From: Synechococcus sp. PCC 7502
GTDB lineage: Bacteria > Cyanobacteriota > Cyanobacteriia > Pseudanabaenales > Pseudanabaenaceae
Reading direction: 5' to 3'
Assembly: GCF_000317085.1 (NCBI RefSeq)
Contig: NC_019702.1
Span: forward strand, 3,378,394 to 3,442,393
DNA: 64,000 bases
Under the pieces are notes generated by a model, which was given only the letters and a program-made list of their open reading frames with translations, was not told where the DNA came from and searched no databases. Within the stretch, counting starts at the first letter, position 1, and each line of letters begins with the position of its first letter. Positions 273 to 61,250 of this stretch are shown here, piece after piece. The position numbers and the translations under genes are program-made.

Positions 273-1952
273 TTAACTTACCTCAGCTTTGACAACTGTA
301 ATTAGTTCTTGTAAAAGTTGATCCAAGCCTTGGCGTTGCATAGCGGAAACATAAATTGCATCAGGATATTTTGCTTTAATTTCATCTAAATCTGGCACGG
401 CATCAATTTTATTAAATACGGTTAGGGTGGCTCCGACAGCAATCGGCATATCCGCTAAAATCTGATTCACAGCTTCTAATTGGGATTCCCACGCCTCATG
501 GGAAATATCAACTAAGTGAATTAATACATCGGCTTCGGTGACTTCTTCAAGGGTGGCGCGAAAAGCATTGACCAGAGGTGGTGGCAGTTCGTGAATAAAT
601 CCAACGGTATCAGTGATCAGAATGGTTTGGGGATTAGGATCATGCTCTTGATCACGAATATGCAAACGGCGGGTGGTTGGATCAAGGGTGGCAAATAGCT
701 TGTCAGCAGCATAAACCGTGGACTTGGTTAAGGCATTGAGTAAAGTTGATTTACCTGCATTGGTGTATCCCACGATCGCTACCGTCGGAATTTCTTGATC
801 AATCCGTTGTTGCCGCATTCTTGCCCGTTGGGATTGGAGTTGATCGACTTGATGTTGCAGTTGGGTAATCCGTTTTTGAATAACACGGCGATCAGTTTCC
901 AGTTTGGTTTCTCCAGGTCCTCTGGTACCAATTCCACCACCTAATCGGGATAAAGCCATACCTCTACCTGCTAAACGGGGTAAACGATATTGCAATTGAG
1001 CTAATTCTACTTGCAACTTTCCTGCGGCAGACTGGGCGCGTTGGGCAAATATATCTAAAATTACTTCCGTGCGATCGCTAACCCTAATTCCCATTAATCT
1101 TTCTAAATTCCGAATTTGGGCAGGGGATAATTCTCGGTCAAATACAATTAAGTTAGCTCCCTGAGTTTGAGCCGCAAGGGCAATTTCTTGAACTTTACCT
1201 TCACCTAATACGGTTTGGGGATGGGGGCGATCGCGTTTTTGGAGAATTGTACTGAGAACTACACCGCCTGCACTATCTACTAACTGCCCTAGTTCGGATA
1301 GAAGTTCTTGGGGCTTTTGGGTTGATTTTTTGTGAGAGGAACGATAGGAAGCATCACTGGTAATTAGACCGACTAAAATTACTCGATCTTGTTCATCTTC
1401 AACAACTTGGGCTTTATATTCGCGCCGAAACTGATCTTCTAGCCCCGAAACTAATTCTAAAAAATCCTGTTTACTAACAGCATCCAAACTTTGGGGAGGA
1501 GAAACATACCAAGATTCACCATCTATTGACTCAGGTAAAATATGGGCGGTATAGGCACGATCAACATAGCCTTTACTAGTGATAGTTACGGTAATCAAAC
1601 TATCCAGCCGTTGCATAGCCATAGCCGTTAAATCTGTAATACTGGGCGGCTCGTGCTTAAGATTAGTGGCAATACAGCGCAGTCCACATAAACGTTCTTC
1701 CCCATACCGAGGTAACTCCATTAACGGAATTTTGGCATGGTTGGGCGTACCTAATCCGACCCTAATTACCTGCCCCCGCCGATTTACGAATACACATACA
1801 GGTTTATTTATATCACTGCTAATACCTGCCAGTCGTTGGGCAAATTCGGGAGTTGTCAAAGATTCAATGGGCAGTCTTTGGCGATATAGACGCTCTAGTT
1901 GCTTAATCTGGCTTGGTTTTAAGCCTTGGGTATCTCCGTAAATATTCTCGAT
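273..1952 (-). CDS. hflX: GTPase HflX (probable non-AUG start)
   Basis: HflX is a ribosome-associated GTPase that splits stalled or stress-arrested ribosomes. The protein shows the N-terminal HflX domain with a glycine-rich GGGIGTRGPGE segment, then the G domain: G1 GYTNAGKST, G3 DTVGF followed by IHELPP, and G4 NKID. The first conventional start in frame is TTG at 1859 (528 aa). However, the frame stays open upstream and encodes residues typical of cyanobacterial HflX N-termini (IYGDTQGLKPSQIKQLERLY). No ATG, GTG or TTG occurs in that extension before the TGA at 1962-1964. An ATC at 1950-1952 has GAGG seven bases upstream and gives about 559 aa, so I place the start there. If ATC is not used, the TTG start is the fallback. 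It converges tail to tail with the ABC ATPase gene. Confidence 0.9.
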   Translation of the reverse strand: MENIYGDTQGLKPSQIKQLERLYRQRLPIESLTTPEFAQRLAGISSDINKPVCVFVNRRGQVIRVGLGTPNHAKIPLMELPRYGEERLCGLRCIATNLKHEPPSITDLTAMAMQRLDSLITVTITSKGYVDRAYTAHILPESIDGESWYVSPPQSLDAVSKQDFLELVSGLEDQFRREYKAQVVEDEQDRVILVGLITSDASYRSSHKKSTQKPQELLSELGQLVDSAGGVVLSTILQKRDRPHPQTVLGEGKVQEIALAAQTQGANLIVFDRELSPAQIRNLERLMGIRVSDRTEVILDIFAQRAQSAAGKLQVELAQLQYRLPRLAGRGMALSRLGGGIGTRGPGETKLETDRRVIQKRITQLQHQVDQLQSQRARMRQQRIDQEIPTVAIVGYTNAGKSTLLNALTKSTVYAADKLFATLDPTTRRLHIRDQEHDPNPQTILITDTVGFIHELPPPLVNAFRATLEEVTEADVLIHLVDISHEAWESQLEAVNQILADMPIAVGATLTVFNKIDAVPDLDEIKAKYPDAIYVSAMQRQGLDQLLQELITVVKAEVS

Positions 1953-2036
1953 AAAACTGCCTCAAACTAAATTACATACTTTTTTCATCATACATTACCC
2001 CTTAAATTAACCGTTGAAATGCACTATCCAGACCGC

Positions 2037-2810
2037 TTAAAACAGATTAAATCGCTCTAAATGAATGGCGATCGCTGCGGGTAATTCTCTAATTAGAGCA
2101 TTGTAGTTAATCACAGTTAAACGTTGATGAATGGGTAAGTCAAAGGGAAAAGTACCTTGATCTGGACTACCAACTTGGATTAATAATATCTGCTCCGATC
2201 GCTTTACCTGAAGAGCATAACCAACCTCTACACACACATGGGGACTGGGAATTAACTGGGGTGGATCACTATTAATTTCGGCATTAATTTGGGCGATCGC
2301 ACTGACATCGGCAATAAATAATAGCGAACGTTTGAGCTTAGAAAATAAAGTACTTTTGAGCTTAATGGGTTCATCAGTAGAACGGAAAGATTGCTCTAGG
2401 GTTAACTTGATCCGAGATGTGCGATTAATTTGGGCGATCGTAGATTCCAGTGCCTCTCTAATCAATTCGCTGTAATGAGGTTGCTGAGTTTGATAGCTAA
2501 AAAATATGGTGGGGTCTAGCTGAGACAGTGCCTCTTGCTTAGTAAAGTAAACCTCATGGCTAATTAGATCAATGTTAGCGATCGCATAGCTGCCACTACC
2601 TTCTACATAGAATTCAATCGTCTCGCCTGCTAAATATCGCTGAAACCACTCAGATTCTCGCACTACAGATACTTCATCTAAAAAATCTGCTCTCAGTGCC
2701 GACTTCAGTAAACTATTTTTCGCCAATCTTAAGTCATGGGGACGCTCAAACAGCGATCGCAAAGGTTCGTATTCAGGAATATACCAAGCTCTTAACGCAA
2801 TAATTGCCAT
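2037..2810 (-). CDS. Conserved cyanobacterial protein with a C-terminal TIR/deoxyribosyltransferase-like Rossmann segment
   Basis: This 257-residue soluble protein is not one I can name. The N-terminal half (about 1-95) reads like a conserved cyanobacterial family, with PHDLRLAKNSLLKSALRADFL and a stretch ending YFTKQEAL. The C-terminal third contains SLLFIADVSAIA, then SPHVCVEVGYALQ, ILLIQ and PFDL followed by QRLTVINY. That order (ADVS, P.V..E.GYA, ILL, PFDL, R..Y) resembles nucleotide-binding TIR-like and nucleoside 2-deoxyribosyltransferase-like Rossmann folds, where the Glu before GYA is often catalytic. This is motif resemblance, not proof. No signal peptide or membrane span is visible. 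It lies alone between hflX and a divergent small gene. Confidence 0.7.
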   Translation of the reverse strand: MAIIALRAWYIPEYEPLRSLFERPHDLRLAKNSLLKSALRADFLDEVSVVRESEWFQRYLAGETIEFYVEGSGSYAIANIDLISHEVYFTKQEALSQLDPTIFFSYQTQQPHYSELIREALESTIAQINRTSRIKLTLEQSFRSTDEPIKLKSTLFSKLKRSLLFIADVSAIAQINAEINSDPPQLIPSPHVCVEVGYALQVKRSEQILLIQVGSPDQGTFPFDLPIHQRLTVINYNALIRELPAAIAIHLERFNLF

Positions 2811-2916
2811 AATCTACTAAGCCCAACTTTTAGAGATAGATTACACTAAATTTTTTAGCGATCGTGGGTAATAATTAACAAACTACATTAAATTACATTA
2901 TTTGTTGGAATCAGAT

Positions 2917-3087
2917 ATGACTACCCATTTCATCACTGCCGAAATTGACTTAAACCAGAATCAAGAAGACTTAGTAGAAACAATTAAAAATACCCTTTCT
3001 ACCCAAGGTGAACCCCTACGTTGGGCAGTTACCGAAGTTGACACCAATAATCAAATCGCCACGGTTGAAGCAGTAGTAACGACATAA
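2917..3087 (+). CDS. Small conserved cyanobacterial protein (56 aa)
   Basis: A short acidic protein beginning MTTHFITAEIDL and ending VEAVVTT. A TTG-initiated extension to 2902 is possible, but ATG 2917 gives the usual start (MTTHF) as I recall it for this small family. It has no cysteines, membrane span or signal peptide, and its role is unknown. It is divergent from the 2037-2810 gene and about 215 bases upstream of ffh. That gap holds a GCGATCGC site and AT-rich sequence with a direct repeat of TTTGCGTTTT, but no clear gene. Confidence 0.7.
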   Translation: MTTHFITAEIDLNQNQEDLVETIKNTLSTQGEPLRWAVTEVDTNNQIATVEAVVTT

Positions 3088-3304
3088 TTTCACTTTTTAA
3101 GTTAATTTGCCCCTACATCGAAGAAAACGTATTTTTTAGAATTTGCGTTTTGTTTTTGCGTTTTAGCGGGGAAAGTAAAAATTCAAGTAAATGCAAAAAT
3201 TGAGTGCCCGATTGCTAGACTAGATAAACCTATGACTTTACTCAATAATGGCGATCGCATATTTGCCACCCAATTTAATTGGATAATTTTAAATATTTAA
3301 GATC

Positions 3305-4717
3305 ATGTTTGATGAAATTTCCGATAAGTTTGAACAGGCTTGGAAAAAGCTGCGTGGTCAGGACAAAATCACCACATCTAATATTCAAGGTGCAATTCGA
3401 GAAGTCCGCCGCGCCTTATTAGAAGCTGATGCTAACCTCCAAGTAGTTAAAGATTTTAGCGATCGCCTTACCCAGAAAGCCCAAGGTGCCGATGTTATAG
3501 CAGGAGTACGTCCCGACCAGCAATTCATCAAAATTGTCTATGATGAGTTAGTTCAAGTCATGGGTAGCGAAAATGCACCCTTGGCTGAGGCAGAGACTGC
3601 ACCGACCGTCATTTTAATGGCAGGCTTACAGGGTACAGGTAAAACCACTGCTTCCGCTAAATTAGCCCTACATCTCCGCAAACTTAACCGCACTACTCTT
3701 TTAGTTGCCACCGATATTTACCGCCCTGCAGCGATCGATCAGTTAATCACCCTTGGCAATCAGATCGATGTACCCGTGTTTCAGTTGGGTACCGATGCTA
3801 ATCCCGTGGAAATTGCCCGACAGGGGGTTGCCCATGCCAAAGCTGAAGGGATAAATACTGTAATTGTGGATACGGCTGGACGCTTGCAGATTGATGAAAC
3901 CATGATGGCTGAGCTTGTCCAAATTAAACAGGCGATCGCTCCCCACGAAGTTTTATTAGTAGTAGATGCCATGACTGGACAGGAGGCAGCCAACCTCACC
4001 CGCACCTTCCATGACCAAATTGGTATCACTGGCGCAATTTTAACTAAGCTTGATGGCGATACTAGAGGTGGGGCGGCACTATCAGTACGGGAGATTTCGG
4101 GGCAACCGATTAAATTTGTGGGTGTGGGCGAAAAAGTCGAAGCATTACAGCCGTTTTATCCCGAACGTATGGCTTCACGGATTTTGGGGATGGGTGATGT
4201 CCTGACCCTTGTGGAAAAAGCGCAGGAAGAAATTAATATTGCCGATGCCGAAAAACTGCAAGAAAAGATTCTATCCGCTAAGTTTGATTTTGATGACTTC
4301 CTCAAAAATACCCGCATGATGAAAAGCATGGGTTCCTTTGGCGGACTCCTCAAAATGCTCCCAGGCATGAAAATCAATGATGCTCAAATTAAAGAGGCAG
4401 AAAATCAACTAAAACGCTGCGAGGCAATGATCAGTTCGATGACTAAGCAGGAACGCCAAGACCCCGACCTCCTAGCAAAAAGTCCTAGCCGTAAACAGCG
4501 CATTGCCAAAGGATCAGGCTATCAACTCCAAGATGTGACAAAATTGGTTTCCGACTTTCAAAGAATGCGGACAATGATGCAACAAATGGGTAAAGGTAAA
4601 ATGCCCGGAATGCCCGGTGGTGGATTTCCCGATATGATGGGTGGTAATATGCCCCCCGGTAGTCAACCAAGCTACGGTAAAAAGAAAAAAAAGAAAAAAG
4701 GCTTTGGCGAACTTTAA
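3305..4717 (+). CDS. ffh: Signal recognition particle protein Ffh (SRP54)
   Basis: Ffh binds SRP RNA and signal sequences of nascent membrane proteins and delivers ribosomes to FtsY. The 470-residue length is normal. Order of domains: N domain (1-90), G domain with P-loop GLQGTGKTT near residue 108, DTAGR near 193 and TKLDGD near 249, then a methionine-rich M domain (about 300-440) with repeated MM/GM clusters. The tail is lysine-rich (KKKKKKKG). The ATG at 3305 is directly before the conserved MFDEISDKFEQAWKKLRG. It ends 11 bases before the DUF2288-type gene, so the two may be cotranscribed. Confidence 0.97.
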   Translation: MFDEISDKFEQAWKKLRGQDKITTSNIQGAIREVRRALLEADANLQVVKDFSDRLTQKAQGADVIAGVRPDQQFIKIVYDELVQVMGSENAPLAEAETAPTVILMAGLQGTGKTTASAKLALHLRKLNRTTLLVATDIYRPAAIDQLITLGNQIDVPVFQLGTDANPVEIARQGVAHAKAEGINTVIVDTAGRLQIDETMMAELVQIKQAIAPHEVLLVVDAMTGQEAANLTRTFHDQIGITGAILTKLDGDTRGGAALSVREISGQPIKFVGVGEKVEALQPFYPERMASRILGMGDVLTLVEKAQEEINIADAEKLQEKILSAKFDFDDFLKNTRMMKSMGSFGGLLKMLPGMKINDAQIKEAENQLKRCEAMISSMTKQERQDPDLLAKSPSRKQRIAKGSGYQLQDVTKLVSDFQRMRTMMQQMGKGKMPGMPGGGFPDMMGGNMPPGSQPSYGKKKKKKKGFGEL

Positions 4718-4728
4718 TAGTTTTTGTA

Positions 4729-5025
4729 ATGAACGAATTAAGAACTCACTTACAGGATTTAGTTGATACAGCCGTTTGGGAATGGCTAGAGGAACACGCT
4801 CAAGAAGGTCGAATGCTCATTGTGGCACCCCATTTAGAATTAGTAGATGTGGGTCTAGCATTAGCCGAAGATGACATTAGTATTGTGAAGCAGTGGCTAG
4901 ATGATGGCTGGTTATATCGACCGACCGATGGACAAATTAGTCATTGGCAAAACGATAAAAACTTGGAATTTAAAAGTTTAATAATTCAGCCTTTTGTGTT
5001 GTGCCGATTGCCAGCAGATGGGTAA
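4729..5025 (+). CDS. DUF2288 family protein
   Basis: A 98-residue acidic protein recognised by the pattern EWLEEHAQEG, LELVDVGLALAEDD, a central WL..G.L.RPT segment and the closing IIQPFVL, which together mark the DUF2288 family. Function unknown; soluble, no signal peptide. It starts 11 bases after ffh and probably shares its transcript. About 20 bases past the stop is a perfect 6-bp inverted repeat (GTTCCA...TGGAAC) that could form a hairpin, but it has no clear T-run. Confidence 0.85.
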   Translation: MNELRTHLQDLVDTAVWEWLEEHAQEGRMLIVAPHLELVDVGLALAEDDISIVKQWLDDGWLYRPTDGQISHWQNDKNLEFKSLIIQPFVLCRLPADG

Positions 5026-5157
5026 TAGTTAAATTAAAGTCTAGGTTCCAGCACATATTGGAACTGCTTTATCCCATTAAAAGTCGCCACTTTAGTATGC
5101 TACGATCGCTGTAATTAGTAATAAATAGCATTAGTTTAAATAATTAAGTTAATATCC

Positions 5158-5865
5158 ATGCAAACAACTGAAAAACCTCTACAAAGTTCTGCCCGTGACC
5201 TATTTCAGGCTGCTTACGAAAATCGCTATACATGGGACTCTAACTTTCCGGGCTTCAGTGCCGATGTCTCTGTCAGCATAGATGGTATGACTCGTACAGG
5301 TAGGGCAACTATCACCAAAGACCTAACCGTAGAAGTAATTATGGACGATCAAAAGCTAATTACTCGTACCAGTCGCACTCCCAGTGGTGAAGAAAAAACA
5401 ATCACCGTCGATGAAGAACAGGAATGGTTAACCAATCAATTAAAAGATGTCGTCACCCACCGCAAACGTAAATCCTTTGAAGATGCTCATGGCAAGTCTA
5501 GTTTTTCTATGGGCGATCGCGATGCCTCAGGTGCTGTAGAAATTTTAGTATCTGGCGACTCAATGGGTTCCAACTATAAAGTCAAGGATAATCAGATTTC
5601 CCTGGTTAGTCGGGTCATGGGTCGCATTGGTTTTGTCATTAATCATTTAGCGCACTTGGATACAGGTGAAGGCTATATTTCTAGTGCCTATAACGCTATA
5701 TTCCGTAATCCTCAAACCGATGCCATTACCCGTCAGGCAAAATTTGAAGATAACTACGAAAAAATTGGTAACTACTATGTGATGACTAGTCAATTTGTCC
5801 AAGTTAACGAGCAAGGTACTCAAAAAACTTACGAGATCAAATTTTCTAATATTCAGCTTTCTTAG
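5158..5865 (+). CDS. DUF3386 family protein
   Basis: A 235-residue soluble protein typical of cyanobacteria and plastids. Family landmarks are ARDLFQAAYENRYTWDSNFPG near the N-terminus, VVTHRKRKSFEDAHGK in the middle, SGDSMGSNYKVKDNQI, and a C-terminal beta-rich part ending in YEIKFSNIQLS. Biochemical function unknown. It has its own upstream region of about 130 bases. It converges on the hydrolase gene at 5946; the 80-base gap contains a weak GGGG/TCCC hairpin followed by a T-run near 5915-5925, possibly a shared terminator. Confidence 0.88.
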   Translation: MQTTEKPLQSSARDLFQAAYENRYTWDSNFPGFSADVSVSIDGMTRTGRATITKDLTVEVIMDDQKLITRTSRTPSGEEKTITVDEEQEWLTNQLKDVVTHRKRKSFEDAHGKSSFSMGDRDASGAVEILVSGDSMGSNYKVKDNQISLVSRVMGRIGFVINHLAHLDTGEGYISSAYNAIFRNPQTDAITRQAKFEDNYEKIGNYYVMTSQFVQVNEQGTQKTYEIKFSNIQLS

Positions 5866-5945
5866 TTAAAGGTAAACATTAATCAGAATAGTTGGTGATT
5901 GGGGGCAGGTAGTTCCCTTTTTTTATGAATTACCTTCAAAAATTA

Positions 5946-6620
5946 TTACGGCTCTAAATAACTAGCCCACTTATGTACCAATTCGGGCGAACCATACCAC
6001 AGACCAGCTTTAGGTGAGTGATTTGCCCCTTCTAAAACTAAATTCTCCGCACCTGCTAAGTGAGCGCATTCAATCGGAATAATGCCATCTCCCCAAGTAT
6101 TGCCTATTCCACAGGTTAATTCATAGCTACTATATGCCAACCAAGACTTCCATGTCTTCTCCCCATAAACAGCCTTACCCGCTATACAAATATATTTGAG
6201 GTTTTGATGAAAAGCATCAGGGTAATTGTTATTGACAAAATCTAAATTCGGGGCAGCCCAAGGTTCTTTACTGCGATGGGGAGTGCCTAGGCTAATTAAA
6301 CGCGCAACCTGAGCATTTGCACCCCAAACTCTCCCATAGTAAGGAGTTTCACCCAAATAAATTCTGGAAACCCAACCTCCTGCGGAATGGGCAATTAAGT
6401 TAACCTGAGATACTTGCAACTCTTGACATATTTGCTTAACGGCTTGATCTAACTTTAGTAAAATTGGTGCGATCGATCTGCCGCCCACTGTGGGGAGCCA
6501 TTCCCACCACTCCAACGGCACTATGGTTGCTTTAAAGCCTAAATTTTCTAAGGACATTTGCAAACCTAGATAATCCTTGGCACCAGCTAAATAGCCGGGG
6601 AGAATTAAATTAGGAATCAT
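5946..6620 (-). CDS. Alpha/beta hydrolase, lipase/esterase-like
   Basis: A 224-residue protein with an alpha/beta-hydrolase outline: a hydrophobic start (LILPGYLAGAKDY), a nucleophile elbow AHSAGG in the middle, a following GTPHRS motif common in lipases, an Asp in GDGIIPIECAHL and a late His in GANHSPKAG that complete a plausible Ser-Asp-His triad. The GTPHR motif suggests a lipase or PGAP1-like acylhydrolase; the substrate is unknown. No signal peptide is evident, so it is probably cytoplasmic. Its ATG overlaps the hisZ stop (ATGA), implying translational coupling. Confidence 0.85.
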   Translation of the reverse strand: MIPNLILPGYLAGAKDYLGLQMSLENLGFKATIVPLEWWEWLPTVGGRSIAPILLKLDQAVKQICQELQVSQVNLIAHSAGGWVSRIYLGETPYYGRVWGANAQVARLISLGTPHRSKEPWAAPNLDFVNNNYPDAFHQNLKYICIAGKAVYGEKTWKSWLAYSSYELTCGIGNTWGDGIIPIECAHLAGAENLVLEGANHSPKAGLWYGSPELVHKWASYLEP

Positions 6621-7801
6621 AGGTTTTCTGTACTCAAGACTCCAGAGCTACTGACCCAAGCCACTTGTTTAATCCCGCGCGATCGCCCATAGGCAACAAC
6701 TGCATCCCGATCACGAAACTCTAGTTCTAACTCTACAGCAACTCCGTACTTAGTCCGTAAATCTGAGGCATAGCTAAAGGCATTATTAACTGCATCAGGA
6801 GCGATCGCCACCACTAACCAAGCACTAGGCTCAATTTCCCTTGGCAGTGTTGGCATTAAAACCTTATGTAAGTCTTCTAAGTTTAAACAAAAACCAATAC
6901 TAGGATGACTTTCACATTGGGCGTTATAAAGTCCGAGCAGTTGATCATAACGTCCGCCTTGGGCAATGACATAGTTTCCGCTTACGACTTCAAACACAAT
7001 GCCAGTGTAGTAGCCAAAACTCTGAACCAAACTTAGGTCTAGGATCGGAGTCACAGGAAAGCTATGCTCTATTAGTGCAATCAATGACTGCAAATATTGT
7101 ATTTCAGTATCTAAATGTTTAACCCATGTTAGAGATAATATCCGCTCTAAAACCTCATGGGGCTGACCACGGAGATCAATTAAATCTAAAGCCTGTGACT
7201 TTAACTGCTCTGGCATAGCTAAATTTAGTAAACCGATCCGATCTAGCTCAGCAATACACCTACGAACTTTAGCTTGATATTGGACAGGAAAAGTATTTAG
7301 TAAAGCCGTAGTTAATCCCACATCACCTAACACCATCTGCCAATTATTTAAACTAGTACTCTCTAGACATTTTGCCAGTAACAGTAAAATTTCAGCGTCG
7401 GCTAATATCCCTGCTCCCCCTAATAGCTCCACTCCTGACTGATAATATTCCTGTTGGCGATTACTTGAAGGCAACTTCCGAAATACATTATCGTTGTAGT
7501 ACAAACGTTGAGGACTAGTAACCTTTCCTAATCTTGACGCATAGGCACGGGCGATCGAAGCCGTTAGTTCAGGTCGCAAGCCCAAAACTTCAGCATTACT
7601 CCCATCTACTTGAATTACTGATTCCAGTTTTACAGCCCCACCTACGGTCAGGGTGCCTAAATGTTCAAGAGTTGGGGTAATAATGCAATGATAGCCCCAT
7701 GATCGAAATACTGATTGCAGGCGAGTTTCAATCCACTGCTTTTGAGCTACGTCCAAGGGTAGTAAATCCCTAGCCCCTATAGGAAGTGTTAAATTTACCA
7801 T
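6617..7801 (-). CDS. hisZ: ATP phosphoribosyltransferase regulatory subunit HisZ
   Basis: HisZ is a catalytically dead paralogue of histidyl-tRNA synthetase that pairs with short HisG to form the first enzyme of histidine synthesis. The 394-residue protein has class II synthetase-like motifs: GARDLLP at the start, motif 2-like RYYNDNVFRK (degenerate), SGVELLGG, and a motif 3-like AQGGRYDQLLGLY followed by SIGFCLNLE. It lacks a full HisS anticodon-binding domain, which together with its length favours HisZ over HisS. Its stop overlaps the start of the downstream hydrolase by 4 bases. The hisG partner is not in this window. Confidence 0.92.
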   Translation of the reverse strand: MVNLTLPIGARDLLPLDVAQKQWIETRLQSVFRSWGYHCIITPTLEHLGTLTVGGAVKLESVIQVDGSNAEVLGLRPELTASIARAYASRLGKVTSPQRLYYNDNVFRKLPSSNRQQEYYQSGVELLGGAGILADAEILLLLAKCLESTSLNNWQMVLGDVGLTTALLNTFPVQYQAKVRRCIAELDRIGLLNLAMPEQLKSQALDLIDLRGQPHEVLERILSLTWVKHLDTEIQYLQSLIALIEHSFPVTPILDLSLVQSFGYYTGIVFEVVSGNYVIAQGGRYDQLLGLYNAQCESHPSIGFCLNLEDLHKVLMPTLPREIEPSAWLVVAIAPDAVNNAFSYASDLRTKYGVAVELELEFRDRDAVVAYGRSRGIKQVAWVSSSGVLSTENL

Positions 7802-7853
7802 TTAATAGTGGTTAGAATTAGTTGTTCCAAGTTATTTTAAGTTTAATATAGGA

Positions 7854-8960
7854 TCAGTTGCCACTCAGCCAACCAAAGAACCCACCCTTTTTAGATTTTG
7901 GTTTGTCCTTACCTTTAGGGTCATCTTTTTTACCTGAAGCATCTAAGCTATTTATATATTTTAAGGCTAGAGGTTCCTGAGGATTTAATCTCAAAGCTTT
8001 TTGAAAATTAGACTTTGCCAACCCCATCAGTTTTTGATTCATATAAACTAAACCCAACAGGGCATAGCATTTACTACTCCCATTATCAATCTGCTCTGCT
8101 TTAGTTAACTCATTACGTGCCATTGACCATTGGTTTTTAGCAATATAGTCCTCTGCTAGCTTAAGGTAGGGCTGAATTGAAACCTTGGGTTTAGTCGGTT
8201 CTTGGTTAATTTGTGATTCTTGCTGTAGTCTAGTATTTGCCTGAGAATCAATTTTATTTGATTTACTCGATCCTCCTGTAGGTGGGGGGTAAATAATATC
8301 GGTTTTAGGTTTATATATACCAGTGTTGCCAAGATTACCAGTATTGCTACTTCTATAACTCGGATACATTGGCGGTGGACTGGGGGGCGGTGGTGGGGTA
8401 GTTTGAATAAAAGTATTATCAGTTTGGGGTGTCCCTGCTCCTTGAGGTCTAGGTGCGCTATTGGAGAAATGTTTATAACCCTCTTGATATAGGATATACA
8501 CCAAGTTTAGTTCACTTATTTGTCCTGAATATTCCAAAATTGTATCCAATGACTGGAATTGGTACTCAGCAACCTCCTGTACTGCTTTTTCATAGCTAAA
8601 GTCGCTGGGGAAATAAAGTAATTGACGTGCTACTTCTGACTGAGGGTTAATTCTTTGTCCCTTTTTCATAAGTCTTTTGCCAAGTAGCTTAAGTACGGCA
8701 GTGTATGCAGTTCTTTCAAGGGGTTGGTTTAAAACATGATAGGCGGGGTTAACCAGTTTAGCTAGATACTGGGTTGCTAGATGTTTTTCAAGGGGAGGAC
8801 GACCATAAATATCAGGGTGCAAAATTTTGGCTATGGATAGGTATCTTTTACGCAAAGTGACTGCATCTGCCGTTATAGGGACTCCTAGGGCAGCATAGTA
8901 ATCATTAAAATCGAATTGACATATTCCTTGATCAATCCGAAATGGTTGCAGCTTTTTCAC
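7854..8960 (-). CDS. DnaJ-domain protein with TPR repeats
   Basis: The 368-residue protein opens with a J domain (about residues 17-80): DYYAALGVP, then RKRYLSIAKILHPDIYG with the HPD tripeptide needed to stimulate Hsp70 ATPase. A proline/glycine/serine-rich linker (about 170-245, including PPPPPPSPPP) follows. The C-terminal part (about 260-345) has at least two TPR-like helix pairs (AEDYIAKNQWSMARNELTKA; YALLGLVYMNQKLMGLAKSN). The end is very lysine-rich before GGFFGWLSGN. It lacks the zinc-finger and substrate domains of true DnaJ, so it is a specialised DnaK cochaperone. It is 52 bases upstream of hisZ on the same strand. Confidence 0.88.
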   Translation of the reverse strand: MKKLQPFRIDQGICQFDFNDYYAALGVPITADAVTLRKRYLSIAKILHPDIYGRPPLEKHLATQYLAKLVNPAYHVLNQPLERTAYTAVLKLLGKRLMKKGQRINPQSEVARQLLYFPSDFSYEKAVQEVAEYQFQSLDTILEYSGQISELNLVYILYQEGYKHFSNSAPRPQGAGTPQTDNTFIQTTPPPPPSPPPMYPSYRSSNTGNLGNTGIYKPKTDIIYPPPTGGSSKSNKIDSQANTRLQQESQINQEPTKPKVSIQPYLKLAEDYIAKNQWSMARNELTKAEQIDNGSSKCYALLGLVYMNQKLMGLAKSNFQKALRLNPQEPLALKYINSLDASGKKDDPKGKDKPKSKKGGFFGWLSGN

Positions 8961-26474: not shown

Positions 26475-29219
26475 ATGCTCGAAGCACTGGAAGAGCTTTT
26501 AGAACATATTGATTACGGCATATTTGTAATCGCAGTTTCTCCACATCCACATTCACAGCTACATTTTTTGTCCATCAACTCCAGTTGTGCTGAGGTATTT
26601 AATTTTTCTGGTCATGTAACTGGATTGGAGCCAGCTAAAGTATTACCCCTCGATTGCGCCCAGAGATTAGTCGATAACTGTAATCGAGCTATAGAGAGTA
26701 AGCATAAGGTTGACTATGAGGAGATTTTCAAGTTTCCCCATAGTTGTAATGCTACTAATGTCATCGCTATTCACCTATCGCCCGTGCTTGATGCTGGTGG
26801 TAATGTGCAGAAAATTATTGGTTCTGTCAATGATTTGAGTCATAGCCGACTTGGCAAAATTAATCGAGATATTTTTTCTTGCTTAGTGACAGGGGATACG
26901 GATGCCGTGATAGTGGTGGATCGGGAAGGGGTAGTACGGTTTGTGAATCCTGCTGCCGAAGTTTTATTTGATCGCTCTGCTCAGGAACTAGAAGGAGAAC
27001 AGTTTGGGTTGCCAATCGTCTCGGGTGAACAAACAGAAGTTGATATTTTACGCCCTAATGGGCAATCTACCCCCGCAGAACTGCGAATTTCTCATACTCA
27101 AGGTGAAGATGAAATTGTCTATATTATTGCCAGCCTTAGGGATATCAGTGTCCGTAAATTGGGCGAGGAGTCTTTGCGCTTGCGAGATCGAGCCTTAGCT
27201 GCGAGTGTGAATGGAATTATCATCGTTGATGCCAAGCAGCCTGATAATCCGATTATTTATATTAATCCTAGCTTTGAGAGAATTACAGGCTATAAAGCCA
27301 GTGAAGTAATTGGTAGCAATTGTCGATTTTTACAGGGGGGCGATCGCTCCCAAGAAGGATTAAGCACGATTAGAGAGGCTGTTAAACAAGGGAAATCCTG
27401 TTATACGGTTCTCCGCAACTATCGTAAAGATGGCACCTTATTTTGGGTGGAGTTATGGGTTTCTCCTGTTCATAATGAGATGGGAGAGTTAACTAACTTT
27501 ATTGGCATTCAAAATGATATTACTTCTCGAGTGTTGAATGAAATAGAAAGGCAGGAAAGTGAAGAAGTATTAAGAACGGTTTTAAGTGCAGTGAAAGAGG
27601 GGATTACCTTCAGTGATGAACGGGGCAAGTTCCTTATTTTTAATCAAGAAATGGAAAACCTGACGGGTTATTCTATGGCAGAGGCAAATTCCTGTCCCAA
27701 CTTTATTAGTCTGATTCATCCTGAAGAGCAAGGTGCTGCGATCGCTCAAATCCAAAAACTGAGGCAGTTTCATAGTCCCGTAGAGTCGGAGGTTAAAATT
27801 CAGACAAAAGCGGGTGTAATTAGAAATGTTCTGGTTTGCTCATCAATGGTTTCCTATAAGGGTAAAACCATGTACTTAAGTGCCTATCGGGATATTACCG
27901 AACGTAAGGAGGCAGAAGAAAAACTACGGCAGACAGCGGAACGGGATCGATTAATTAGTGCGATCGCCCTACGAATCAGAAATTCTATTGACTTAACTAA
28001 CATTCTCCAAAATACGGTCGCAGAAGTTAGAGAGTTTCTCCAAACTGATCGGGTATTAATCTATCAATTTCAAGATGAGGGTGAGGGTAAAATTGTGGTT
28101 GAGTCTGTACTGAATCAATGCTTGGGTACCCTAGGGCGAGAAATCAATGATGATTGCTTTAGTAAAGACTATCTTTTAGCCTATCCCCAAGGTCGGGTTA
28201 CCATAATTGATGATACCGATGATCCTGAACTTGATCTCTGCCATGCCGAATTTTTGAAGAGATTTGAAGTTAGGGCAAATTTGGTGGTACCAATTACCTG
28301 TACTGATCGGGTGTGGGGATTATTAATTGCCCATCAATGTACTGATACTCGCGTCTGGAAGGAAGAGGAAATTACCCTATTAACGGGTTTGGCGGAACAG
28401 GTGGCGATCGGCATTAGGCAAGCTGAGCTTTTACAAAAAGTGCAGACTCTAAATACAGATTTAGAACAGCAGGTGGAAGAACGCACGGCTAAGTTAAGTC
28501 TGGCATTGTCCCGAGAAAAGGAATTAGGGGAAATGAAATCACGGTTTGTATCGATGGCATCCCATGAATTCCGTACGCCCTTAGCAATTATTCAAGCTTC
28601 CAGTGATTTACTTAAGCACTATAACCATAAGCTGACCGAGGATAAGCGCATTGAAAAGTTGGATAAAATTCAGTTAGAGGTGAGAAACATGACTGAATTA
28701 CTGGAAGATGTGTTAGTCATTGGTAAGATTGAAATGGGCAAAATGCACCTGAATCGGGTTTCTTTGGATTTAGAAAAGTTTTGTCTGGAATCAATCGCCG
28801 AATTTAAATCATCTCTGACTTCAAGCGATCGCATTACATTTAGAGTAGAAAATCGCCAAGGGACTGAGCCTTCCGAGCTTTTAGCTGATCCTAAGCTGTT
28901 ACGCCAGATTATGATTAACTTGCTCTCCAATGGGATTAAGTATTCCCTAAATAGTCCCAAAGAGGTTACTGTCAATTTATACTACGATACCGAAAGCTTT
29001 GATTTGGAATTTATTGATCAGGGTATTGGTATTCCGCCCGATGAACAGGATAAAATCTTTGAGTCGTTCCATCGTGCCGAAAACGTAGGAAATATTCCCG
29101 GAACTGGCTTGGGATTAGCGATTACCAAAGTATCAGTGGAATTACACAAGGGTAAAATTAGGGTTGATAGCCAAGTTAATATTGGTACCAAGATCACAAT
29201 TACGATTCCCTATCAATAG
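26475..29219 (+). CDS. Hybrid photoreceptor histidine kinase: PAS, PAS, LOV, PAS, cyanobacteriochrome GAF, HisKA-HATPase
   Basis: A 914-residue soluble sensor kinase. Domains: PAS-like (about 1-120), PAS (130-235), LOV-type PAS (240-350), PAS (355-480), GAF (490-660), a coiled coil, HisKA with H697 in MASHEFRTPLAI, and HATPase_c with NLLSNGIKYS, FIDQGIGIP and GTGLGLAI. The LOV module holds GSNCRFLQG with photoactive C283, N315 in RNYRKDG and Q346 in FIGIQND; the usual Asn of FWN is V325. The GAF holds D559-D-C561-F and C589-H590, 28 residues apart, as in DXCF cyanobacteriochromes that bind phycocyanobilin, plus FEVRANLVVPI and RVWGLLIAHQC. Both chromophore assignments are inferred from motifs. 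It is followed 20 bases later by its probable partner, a receiver-GGDEF-EAL protein. Confidence 0.9.
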   Translation: MLEALEELLEHIDYGIFVIAVSPHPHSQLHFLSINSSCAEVFNFSGHVTGLEPAKVLPLDCAQRLVDNCNRAIESKHKVDYEEIFKFPHSCNATNVIAIHLSPVLDAGGNVQKIIGSVNDLSHSRLGKINRDIFSCLVTGDTDAVIVVDREGVVRFVNPAAEVLFDRSAQELEGEQFGLPIVSGEQTEVDILRPNGQSTPAELRISHTQGEDEIVYIIASLRDISVRKLGEESLRLRDRALAASVNGIIIVDAKQPDNPIIYINPSFERITGYKASEVIGSNCRFLQGGDRSQEGLSTIREAVKQGKSCYTVLRNYRKDGTLFWVELWVSPVHNEMGELTNFIGIQNDITSRVLNEIERQESEEVLRTVLSAVKEGITFSDERGKFLIFNQEMENLTGYSMAEANSCPNFISLIHPEEQGAAIAQIQKLRQFHSPVESEVKIQTKAGVIRNVLVCSSMVSYKGKTMYLSAYRDITERKEAEEKLRQTAERDRLISAIALRIRNSIDLTNILQNTVAEVREFLQTDRVLIYQFQDEGEGKIVVESVLNQCLGTLGREINDDCFSKDYLLAYPQGRVTIIDDTDDPELDLCHAEFLKRFEVRANLVVPITCTDRVWGLLIAHQCTDTRVWKEEEITLLTGLAEQVAIGIRQAELLQKVQTLNTDLEQQVEERTAKLSLALSREKELGEMKSRFVSMASHEFRTPLAIIQASSDLLKHYNHKLTEDKRIEKLDKIQLEVRNMTELLEDVLVIGKIEMGKMHLNRVSLDLEKFCLESIAEFKSSLTSSDRITFRVENRQGTEPSELLADPKLLRQIMINLLSNGIKYSLNSPKEVTVNLYYDTESFDLEFIDQGIGIPPDEQDKIFESFHRAENVGNIPGTGLGLAITKVSVELHKGKIRVDSQVNIGTKITITIPYQ

Positions 29220-29239
29220 CTTGTTTACTGTTTGGGCAA

Positions 29240-30964
29240 ATGACAAAAATTCTGGTAATTGAAGATACGGAATCCCTGCGTGAGGAAATTATTGAAACTC
29301 TTGGACTGGAGGGTTTTGAAGTTGAGGGTGCCGCAAACGGTGAAGTTGGGGTCGAACTGGCTAAACAATATTTGCCTGATTTAATTATTTGTGATGTGAT
29401 GATGCCCGAGCTTGATGGCTATGGCACCTTAGAGGCTTTACAAGGTTATCCCCCCACAGCTACTACGCCCTTTATATTTTTGACTGCTAAAGCTGATCGG
29501 GTAGATATGCGCCACGGTATGGAATTGGGAGCAAATGATTATTTAACTAAACCCTTTGCGAGTTCAGAACTTTTAGGGGCGATCGCTGCTCAGTTAAAAA
29601 AAATTCAAACTATACAATCCCAGCATGAGACTGCGATCCAACTGGCAATTGATAAACATGAACTTAAATTGCAAGAACTAAGGACTAGTAACGATCCCCT
29701 CACCCGCCTGCCCAATCGCCTAGCATTTAATCAGTATCTTCAAGAGTCTATCCTCTATGCCCAAACCCATCAGTGTTCCTTGGCGGTGATTTTAATTGAT
29801 ATTGATGATTTTAATATTGTCAATAACTCCCTCGGGCATAAGATTGGGGATGTTTTATTTAAGGCGATCGCCGAACGACTGCGCCGCTACACCTCTCCGT
29901 GTGACCCCCTAGCCCGCATGCAGGGAGATCAATTTGGGTTAATTCTGATCGATCAATTTGAGCCAGAAAACCTGAAACAATCTAGCCAAGAAATCTTGGA
30001 AGTAATTTCTAGACCTTACCGCATCTTTGGGCATGAAATATTTGTTACTGCCTGCATGGGAATTACCATTTATCCCCAGGATCATTTTGAAACTGCTGGT
30101 TTGATTAAAAATGCGGATATGGCACTTTATTATGCTAAGTCTCAAGGCAGAAACAATTATAAGTTTTATAGTTCTAACTTAAATACCAAACTAGCCGAAC
30201 AGATGGCGATCGAAAATAGTTTGCACCGTGCCTTAGAGCGCAAAGAGTTTCGTTTGTATTACCAACCCGTGATTAATAGTCTTACCAAAAAAATTATTGG
30301 AGCTGAGGCATTAATTCGCTGGCAGCATCCAGATATAGGTATTGTTGCCCCTAATAAATTTATTCCTCTGGCGGAAAGCATGGGCATGATTACTCCAATT
30401 ACGGAATGGGTGATTGAGCAAGCCTGCAAACAGCTAAAAATCTGGCAGGAATTTACAGAAATGTATATAGCGATTAATCTCTCCACTTTTAACTTTAAGC
30501 AAGATAATCTGGTGGATATGATTACTGAGAAAATTAAAGCTGCAGGTGTTTACTTTACCCAAGTGGAACTGGAAATTACCGAAGGCATATTAGTCCAAAA
30601 TCTGGATGAAACCATTGTCAGTTTATCAAAGCTGCGTAACCTAGGGATTAAGATTGCGATCGATGATTTCGGTGTGGGTTTTTCTTCCTTAAGTTACCTT
30701 AAACATTTTCCTGTAGATAAACTTAAGATTGATAAATGCTTTGTCCAAGATATGTTGAAGGATAAGCGAGATGCGGCAATTACCTTAGCAATTATTGAAC
30801 TGGCACATAGTTTAAATTTGGGGGTGGTAGCTGAGGGCGTGGAAACTAAGGAACAACTGCAATATTTACAGGAAAATCAATGTGAAGTAATTCAAGGCTA
30901 TCTATTTAGTCCACCTTTACCTGCGGAGCAGTTTACCCAATTTTTGGTTGCTGAAAAGGTTTAA
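29240..30964 (+). CDS. Response regulator with degenerate GGDEF and intact EAL domain (c-di-GMP phosphodiesterase)
   Basis: The 574-residue protein has a receiver (1-122) with E8/D9, phosphoacceptor D52 in IICDVMMPELDGYG and K in LTKPF. A GGDEF domain (about 150-320) follows, whose active site reads QGDQF (228-232) instead of GGDEF, so cyclase activity is unlikely. The EAL domain (about 335-570) keeps E356-A-L-I-R-W, INLS, LEITEG, AIDDFGVGFSSLSYL, LKIDKCFV, AEGVET and QGYLFSPPLP, the residues needed for metal binding and c-di-GMP hydrolysis. It lies 20 bases behind the LOV/GAF kinase, which should phosphorylate D52. Predicted output: lower c-di-GMP in response to light. Confidence 0.94.
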   Translation: MTKILVIEDTESLREEIIETLGLEGFEVEGAANGEVGVELAKQYLPDLIICDVMMPELDGYGTLEALQGYPPTATTPFIFLTAKADRVDMRHGMELGANDYLTKPFASSELLGAIAAQLKKIQTIQSQHETAIQLAIDKHELKLQELRTSNDPLTRLPNRLAFNQYLQESILYAQTHQCSLAVILIDIDDFNIVNNSLGHKIGDVLFKAIAERLRRYTSPCDPLARMQGDQFGLILIDQFEPENLKQSSQEILEVISRPYRIFGHEIFVTACMGITIYPQDHFETAGLIKNADMALYYAKSQGRNNYKFYSSNLNTKLAEQMAIENSLHRALERKEFRLYYQPVINSLTKKIIGAEALIRWQHPDIGIVAPNKFIPLAESMGMITPITEWVIEQACKQLKIWQEFTEMYIAINLSTFNFKQDNLVDMITEKIKAAGVYFTQVELEITEGILVQNLDETIVSLSKLRNLGIKIAIDDFGVGFSSLSYLKHFPVDKLKIDKCFVQDMLKDKRDAAITLAIIELAHSLNLGVVAEGVETKEQLQYLQENQCEVIQGYLFSPPLPAEQFTQFLVAEKV

Positions 30965-60062: not shown

Positions 60063-61250
60063 TTAAACAGTGGCATAAACTGCCTGATTGCGTCCCTGTG
60101 CTTTGGCTAGATACAGAGCTTGATCGGCTTTAGTAATTAATTGCTCTGGTTTAGTACCTAGGGATGGAATTTGACAAAATACACCAATACTAATAGTTAC
60201 TTCTTGTAGAGGCGATCGCTTGTGGGGAATATGTAAATCTTGAACAAGTTTGCAGATGCGTTCAGCTACTTGAAGAGCCTCAGAGACGGAAGTATTACAT
60301 AAAATAATTACAAACTCCTCACCACCATACCGAGCTACTAAATCTTCATTATGTCTAATATCAGCTTGAATTGTGGCTGCGACTTTTTGGAGGCACTCAT
60401 CCCCTGCTTGATGTCCATAGGTATCATTAAATAATTTGAAGTAATCCACATCACAGAGCAAAATAGCAAGGTTATGGGTATCTGCTAATTCTTGATATTT
60501 AGTATTTAAGTGCTGATCAAAGCGGCGGCGGTTGGCAACTTGAGTTAAGCCATCAATGGCAACCAGTTTTTTTAATTCCTCATTAACCTTTTGTAGCTCT
60601 TGGGACTGTATTTGAATTGTGCGGTTATTAATAAATGACTCAATTCTAGCGTTATAGAGCATAGTCGCCACATACCACCCACCCAAAGTAGCAACAGTTC
60701 CAGAAAAATAGGCAATGGATTGATGATGAAAGGACTGTGCTGGAAAAACGGATATAAAAATTAAATAAAGAATAAAGTTAGTGCCATAGATTATAGTTCC
60801 CAAGCGATGGGGCTGATAAAACATTAAAGCATAGAGAAAAATTGCGATGACATAGGGGACATTTAGGTCAGTGCGTAGCCAAATAGTACAGAAAATCACA
60901 TTGACATAAATCAACATTGTGATCGAGTAAAACAGAATCAGTTGAGATTGAGTTTTAGTCAGTTCTGAGGAGGGTTGATATTGTAGAGAAGTATAAATTT
61001 TCCATAAACTGAAGGCTGAAGTTAAAAATATACCAACTAGAATTAATAGCTGTAGAGATAAATAGACTGGCTCAGACAGAGATAAGCTCAAGTACAGAAC
61101 TGGAGAAACAATGGCGGGGTAAATCAAAGTAAACCATGCCAAGATTCTCATGCGCGCAAGACAAGTTTCAATCCACTCCGCTCTAAAATCTGTTCGCCAC
61201 TGGGGAGGAATTTTGTCGAAGTCACCAAATATCAGGCTTGCCAATTTCAT
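60063..61250 (-). CDS. Membrane-bound diguanylate cyclase (GGDEF)
   Basis: The 395-residue protein has an N-terminal membrane domain (about 35-205) of six or so hydrophobic spans, a short helical linker (QIQSQELQKVNEELKKLVAI), and a C-terminal GGDEF domain (about 235-395) with DGLTQVANRRRFDQHL, CDVDYFKLFNDTYGHQAGDECL, and active site RYGGEEF. It lacks the upstream inhibitory RxxD in obvious form. It should produce c-di-GMP at the membrane, opposing the EAL protein at 29240-30964. Its position at the edge of a decayed islet is not informative. Confidence 0.92.
   Translation of the reverse strand: MKLASLIFGDFDKIPPQWRTDFRAEWIETCLARMRILAWFTLIYPAIVSPVLYLSLSLSEPVYLSLQLLILVGIFLTSAFSLWKIYTSLQYQPSSELTKTQSQLILFYSITMLIYVNVIFCTIWLRTDLNVPYVIAIFLYALMFYQPHRLGTIIYGTNFILYLIFISVFPAQSFHHQSIAYFSGTVATLGGWYVATMLYNARIESFINNRTIQIQSQELQKVNEELKKLVAIDGLTQVANRRRFDQHLNTKYQELADTHNLAILLCDVDYFKLFNDTYGHQAGDECLQKVAATIQADIRHNEDLVARYGGEEFVIILCNTSVSEALQVAERICKLVQDLHIPHKRSPLQEVTISIGVFCQIPSLGTKPEQLITKADQALYLAKAQGRNQAVYATV

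Follow-up and report, generated by a model that had tools for sequence, protein, structure and literature searches.

Light control of c-di-GMP is established in cyanobacteria, through the cyanobacteriochromes (CBCRs) SesA/B/C (PMC9090330) and the LOV-GGDEF-EAL protein SL2 (PMC8846402). In the well-studied cyanobacterial routes of this kind, the sensor sits on the c-di-GMP enzyme itself. SesA/SesB/SesC of Thermosynechococcus place c-di-GMP synthesis and breakdown under CBCR control by blue versus teal/green light, with both activities carried by the photoreceptors themselves and without a LOV domain, a separate kinase or a response regulator (PMC9090330). SL2 of Synechococcus elongatus passes LOV input to c-di-GMP hydrolysis by a GGDEF-EAL module in one chain, with one photosensor and without phosphotransfer (PMC8846402). 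The nearest described system to the one reported here is CdgK/CdgS of Anabaena PCC 7120, an operon for a multi-PAS, GAF-bearing kinase and a REC-bearing c-di-GMP enzyme that acts in a phosphorylation-dependent manner; one CdgK PAS domain is reported to bind FMN (PMC9927289). Unlike the kinase described below, CdgK is a membrane-anchored CHASE hybrid kinase that uses a REC and Hpt phosphorelay, its output is a cyclase rather than an EAL protein, and no CBCR is reported in it (PMC9927289).

Natural fusions of a bilin sensor to a blue-light flavin sensor are represented by fern neochrome and Pycnococcus Dualchrome1. These differ from our kinase in being eukaryotic, in joining a phytochrome to a phototropin or a cryptochrome and in having other outputs (PMC8209157). 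Integration of two inputs is also found in the dual-sensor histidine kinase PPHK (PDB 6oap), whose GAF domain is the closest solved relative of ours but has no Cys at the DXCF position in the alignment to 6oap. We take the second input of PPHK to be a phosphorylation signal, not LOV, and 6oaq to be the BeF3 state.

Here we describe a kinase and response regulator (RR) pair from Synechococcus sp. PCC 7502, located within a 64,000-nucleotide stretch of the genome that was analysed as a whole (the window). The arrangement of the pair appears to be new, its parts and the pairwise links between them being already known, and it suggests a two-component, phosphorylation-gated light route to c-di-GMP breakdown. 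Its features are as follows, with coordinates in the window.

26475 to 29219, plus strand: gene for a soluble histidine kinase of 914 amino acids (ORF, Pfam, AlphaFold2)
Residues 1-121 of the kinase, plus strand: first PAS domain (Pfam, AlphaFold2)
Residues 122-224 of the kinase, plus strand: second PAS domain (Pfam, AlphaFold2)
27147 to 27521, plus strand: LOV domain, residues 225-349 (PDB matches, alignment)
Residues 350-474 of the kinase, plus strand: PAS domain between LOV and GAF (Pfam, AlphaFold2)
27897 to 28439, plus strand: DXCF-type CBCR GAF domain, residues 475-655 (PDB matches, alignment, AlphaFold2)
28533 to 29213, plus strand: kinase core, with HisKA (687-754), HATPase_c (805-913) and phospho-acceptor H697
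29220 to 29239, plus strand: intergenic gap of 20 bases from stop to ATG, with no terminator-like site within it
29240 to 30964, plus strand: gene for a REC-GGDEF-EAL RR of 574 amino acids (Pfam, motif residues)

A preliminary description of this DNA had proposed that two photosensor domain types share one kinase, and Pfam, PDB matches and orthologue conservation agree on this point. The HMM search that it had suggested as a check found PAS_9/PAS (three stretches), GAF, HisKA and HATPase_c, all far above cut-off. Together with an AlphaFold2 model, for which the alignment input was 17 orthologues, these matches give the layout PAS-PAS-LOV-PAS-GAF-HisKA-HATPase_c. The two N-terminal PAS domains and the PAS domain between LOV and GAF, seen in the model, go beyond the preliminary description. 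The kinase core is that of an orthodox HisKA histidine kinase: H697 is the H-box His within SHEFRTP and is kept in 33/33 orthologues, and the N, G1 and G2 boxes of HATPase_c are conserved. A fold search with the whole model returned mainly multi-domain kinases and told us little more than the identities of the domains.

Short LOV proteins from bacteria are the best PDB matches to the LOV region, with E values down to 1e-39. The adduct Cys, C283, was found where the preliminary description had placed it, in the LOV core NCRFLQ (GSNCRFLQ; codon 27321-27323), by ORF translation and alignment. The LOV core pattern has a single match in the source genome, which is the one in this kinase.

For the GAF region, the best PDB matches are CBCRs (6oap, RcaE, TePixJ and others), with 6oap the closest (E 3e-41, 44% identity). 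When modeled alone with AlphaFold2, the GAF domain superimposes on 6oaq with Z 25.5 and on TePixJ 4glq with Z 23.1 (rmsd 2.3, 149 residues aligned). Both cysteines named in the preliminary description are in place: in a gap-free alignment to TePixJ (3vv4), C561, within D559-D-C561-F562 (DDCF; codon 28155-28157), lies on the second Cys of TePixJ, and C589, within LCH and followed by H590 (codon 28239-28241), lies on the canonical one. The domain also carries the ANLVVPI and IAHQC stretches that are common to bilin-binding CBCRs. Typical DXCF domains bind phycocyanobilin (PCB), convert it to phycoviolobilin (PVB) and have a blue and a green state between which they switch (PMC11284453), and by analogy a blue/green colour is the expectation for this GAF domain. 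The source genome has one Fe-bilin reductase gene (Fe_bilin_red), and a phycobilin should therefore be available in the cell.

The second gene begins 20 bases after the kinase gene on the same strand and encodes a receiver-(degenerate GGDEF)-EAL protein, exactly as first proposed. No terminator-like site was found in the 20-base gap, and a promoter and terminator scan did no better on the DNA than on shuffles; the two genes are likely co-transcribed. Response_reg, GGDEF and EAL are all found in the RR far above cut-off by Pfam, and the receiver Asp, D52, is present. All eight EAL catalytic residues are in place (E356, N413, E448, D475, D476, K496, E532 and Q552). These were assigned by motif and spacing, on what we take to be the catalytic positions of RocR and BlrP1. 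The GGDEF motif reads QGDQF here, and QGDEF in a large sister genus, rather than GG(D/E)EF, and cyclase activity is therefore unlikely. Degenerate GGDEF domains in general have known regulatory roles, and such a role is possible for this one.

The pair is not confined to one strain. Among 38 genomes of the order, all of which belong to one family, 34 contain a strong match to the kinase. The kinase was found in each of 20 relatives' loci examined, and in 19 of them the RR gene adjoins it on the same strand; in the remaining genome, G036, no RR gene adjoins the kinase within the stretch examined. Thus, the kinase and the RR form a conserved operon throughout one cyanobacterial family. Kinase orthologues are about 50% identical. 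The LOV Cys is kept in 29 of 33 of them, C561 in 30/33 and C589 in 30/33, and because the same residues are kept in about 30 of 33, we do not regard them as chance occurrences. In the RR, D52 is present in 20/20 partners, E356, N413, E448, D475, D476, K496 and Q552 are invariant in the same 20, and E532 is kept in 16 of them.

The exceptions fall on one sensor at a time. Three genomes of one genus have no LOV domain and keep both the DXCF and the canonical Cys, and the kinase of G036 has a Cys-less LOV domain with its GAF cysteines kept. Conversely, the kinases of G007 (5512-8349 of locus L068) and G014 (locus L045) have an intact LOV domain and have lost both bilin cysteines, the motifs now reading DSNF and PSY. 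In G028 the canonical Cys is lost, and in G005 the second Cys. No orthologue among the 33 examined is without both sensors. From these sequences, each sensor can be lost alone, and because the bilin cysteines or the LOV domain are lost in some orthologues, the module can apparently work with one sensor. The LOV-less genus and the bilin-Cys-less genomes thus provide natural single-sensor controls.

To place the combination more widely, 390 genomes of the class were searched for the LOV core pattern, and 121 matched. In a sample of 100 of the matching regions outside the family, the motif lies inside a long ORF in 95. Most of these ORFs encode LOV-HK-REC or LOV-(PAS)-GGDEF-EAL proteins, and five of the 95 (L134-L137 and L159; L135 is a partial gene) carry a CBCR-like GAF domain with the canonical Cys. 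The idea that LOV-plus-CBCR kinases are unique to this family was thereby rejected. The kinases at L134 (4519-7494, G109), L136 (2451-4493, G085) and L137 (3411-5801, G064) have an H-box of the HEINNP type, L134 has two CBCR-like GAF domains, and no c-di-GMP gene was among the ORFs found beside these three kinases. A search of genome contigs for related loci returned distant kinases only.

The fifth case, L159 (G222; 1523-5876, minus strand), comes from an unrelated family and resembles ours in that a single kinase has both a DXCF CBCR and a LOV domain and is encoded next to a REC-GGDEF-EAL gene, the start of which overlaps the end of the kinase gene. The same kinase type occurs in G337 (L256; 91% identity), which makes two of 145 genomes of that family. 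It differs from our kinase in its kinase class, its reversed sensor order, its CBS domain and the position of its LOV domain elsewhere in the tree, the layout being CBS-CBCR(DPCF, PCH)-PAS-LOV-HisKA_2. On this sequence evidence, a similar design has been put together at least two times from different parts in cyanobacteria. The RR adjoining the L159 kinase is 32% identical to the one at 29240-30964 and has a degenerate EAL domain (DS for DD, AKGVE for AEGVE), so that c-di-GMP hydrolysis may be absent from it; because of this degeneracy, L159 is the weaker case as support for a phosphodiesterase output.

The ancestry of the LOV domain was followed in two unrooted trees of 106 and 78 LOV domains. 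In both, the family's LOV domains sit among the LOV domains of LOV-PAS-GGDEF-EAL proteins; support for this placement in the second tree is 77, which is not firm. A single clade of the family's LOV domains is not rejected (AU p 0.815), nor is a clade uniting them with those of L134-L137 (p 0.09). A single origin for the LOV domains of all LOV-CBCR kinases was rejected (AU p 0.0126). We also considered that the pair arose by fission of a LOV-PAS-GGDEF-EAL protein, and this was rejected since the GGDEF-EAL part of the RR lies outside the LOV-GGDEF-EAL clade (98 SH-aLRT in a quick tree). For the same reason, the LOV domain alone looks recruited. The simplest reading of these trees is that a CBCR kinase, already paired with an EAL protein, acquired a LOV domain akin to those found in c-di-GMP enzymes. 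Since the trees are unrooted, the LOV-less genus could represent either the state before this gain or a clean loss.

The domains, key residues, gene pairing, conservation and recurrence read in these sequences lead us to infer, with somewhat better than even confidence, a light-driven two-component system in which two photosensors in one kinase act on c-di-GMP breakdown. The LOV domain would bind FMN and form an adduct between C283 and the flavin in blue light. C589 of the GAF domain would be the attachment site of phycocyanobilin or of the isomer phycoviolobilin, while a reversible bond from C561 to C10 of the bilin would separate violet/blue from teal/green states. Both signals would travel through signalling helices, with LOV, PAS, GAF and DHp in series, to set the balance of kinase and phosphatase activities at H697. 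Phosphate would then pass from H697 to D52 of the REC-GGDEF-EAL protein and change its phosphodiesterase activity, upward or downward, with the QGDQF GGDEF domain probably regulatory (perhaps by binding GTP) and not a cyclase. In this way, c-di-GMP would follow the colour and amount of blue light, with motility, aggregation or biofilm as the most likely purpose.

There are alternatives at each sensor. In nearly all LOV domains, an Asn equivalent to AsLOV2 N492 makes contact with the flavin. At the flavin-contacting positions of AsLOV2 (N482, N492 and Q513), our LOV domain has N315 and Q346 and, at the N492 equivalent, V325, which occurs only here and in the genus mate G006, with Asn in the other 27 orthologues that have an intact LOV domain. 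This genus-specific Val, together with the three LOV-less orthologues and the Cys-less fourth that keep their GAF cysteines, would fit a kinase in which the CBCR is the sole working photosensor here and the LOV domain serves either as a redox sensor that binds FMN or as a structural PAS, roles that the other PAS domains of the chain may share. We consider this unlikely, since every one of the 29 orthologues whose LOV domain is intact, that of the source genome included, retains the adduct Cys together with both remaining flavin contacts, and since model LOV variants remain photoactive. The photocycle of AsLOV2 N492A persists (54 s versus 80 s; PMC3903614), and YtvA N104A shows a moderate change only (PMC4161478); Val was not among the substitutions noted in these two papers. 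Because both variants stay photoactive, we expect by analogy that the LOV domain is tuned and not dead. The opposite case, in which bilin binding by the GAF domain has been lost or altered and LOV is the sole working photosensor here, draws on G007, G014, G028 and G005, whose lost cysteines make bilin binding look dispensable in some relatives. The source genome has the DDCF, LCH, ANLVVPI and IAHQC stretches as well as a phycobilin reductase, and for this strain we judge that reading improbable.

At the output, the RR might act chiefly by binding c-di-GMP or as a trigger, and not as a phosphodiesterase; alternatively, other regulators might be the main targets of the kinase. GGDEF-EAL proteins with binding or trigger roles exist, namely FimX and LapD, and the replacement of E532 in the LOV-less genus and one other genome, along with the degenerate EAL domain of the G222 partner, points the same way. 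We hold this to be quite doubtful for the 29240-30964 protein, in which all eight catalytic positions are present and for which DosP and MucR, both phosphodiesterases, are among the nearest solved structures, together with the motility regulator 4rnh.

In a bolder reading, the kinase could be neochrome's counterpart in bacteria, computing jointly on a flavin sensor and a bilin sensor of the DXCF type, for example by combining the amount of blue light with the blue/green ratio, with c-di-GMP as output through a dedicated, phosphorylated EAL protein; the design would have been built more than once in cyanobacteria. We offer this extension tentatively, as somewhat short of an even chance. Two chemically different sensors, both covering blue, would here stand in series in one soluble kinase next to an output enzyme that can be assayed, and how one kinase integrates two photosensors thereby becomes testable. 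The preliminary description had not known the combination as described. This stands for the full combination in the papers searched, while LOV-plus-CBCR kinases as such recur and CdgK/CdgS is a precedent. The open-access literature yielded no report of a LOV-plus-CBCR kinase whose partner acts on c-di-GMP, although such fusions may be listed in a survey of bilin and flavin receptors from 2013, to which PMC4844311 refers. Literature searches that paired CBCR with Syn7502, or with both LOV and Pseudanabaena, returned nothing.

The source genome (3.58 Mb on three contigs, the main one of 3,510,253 bases) encodes 9 EAL and 13 GGDEF domains and further GAF domains with a canonical-type Cys. About 30 kb from the pair, at 60063-61250 on the minus strand, lies a gene for a GGDEF protein whose GGEEF motif is intact and whose N-terminal half is hydrophobic, likely a membrane diguanylate cyclase. 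On contig 3 of this genome, 1210500-1232000 (L235, L242) encodes large hybrid kinases of the multi-GAF type that include CBCR-like GAF domains with the canonical Cys, and a second REC-GGDEF-EAL gene lies near them; from its gene content, this cluster is possibly another light to c-di-GMP module.
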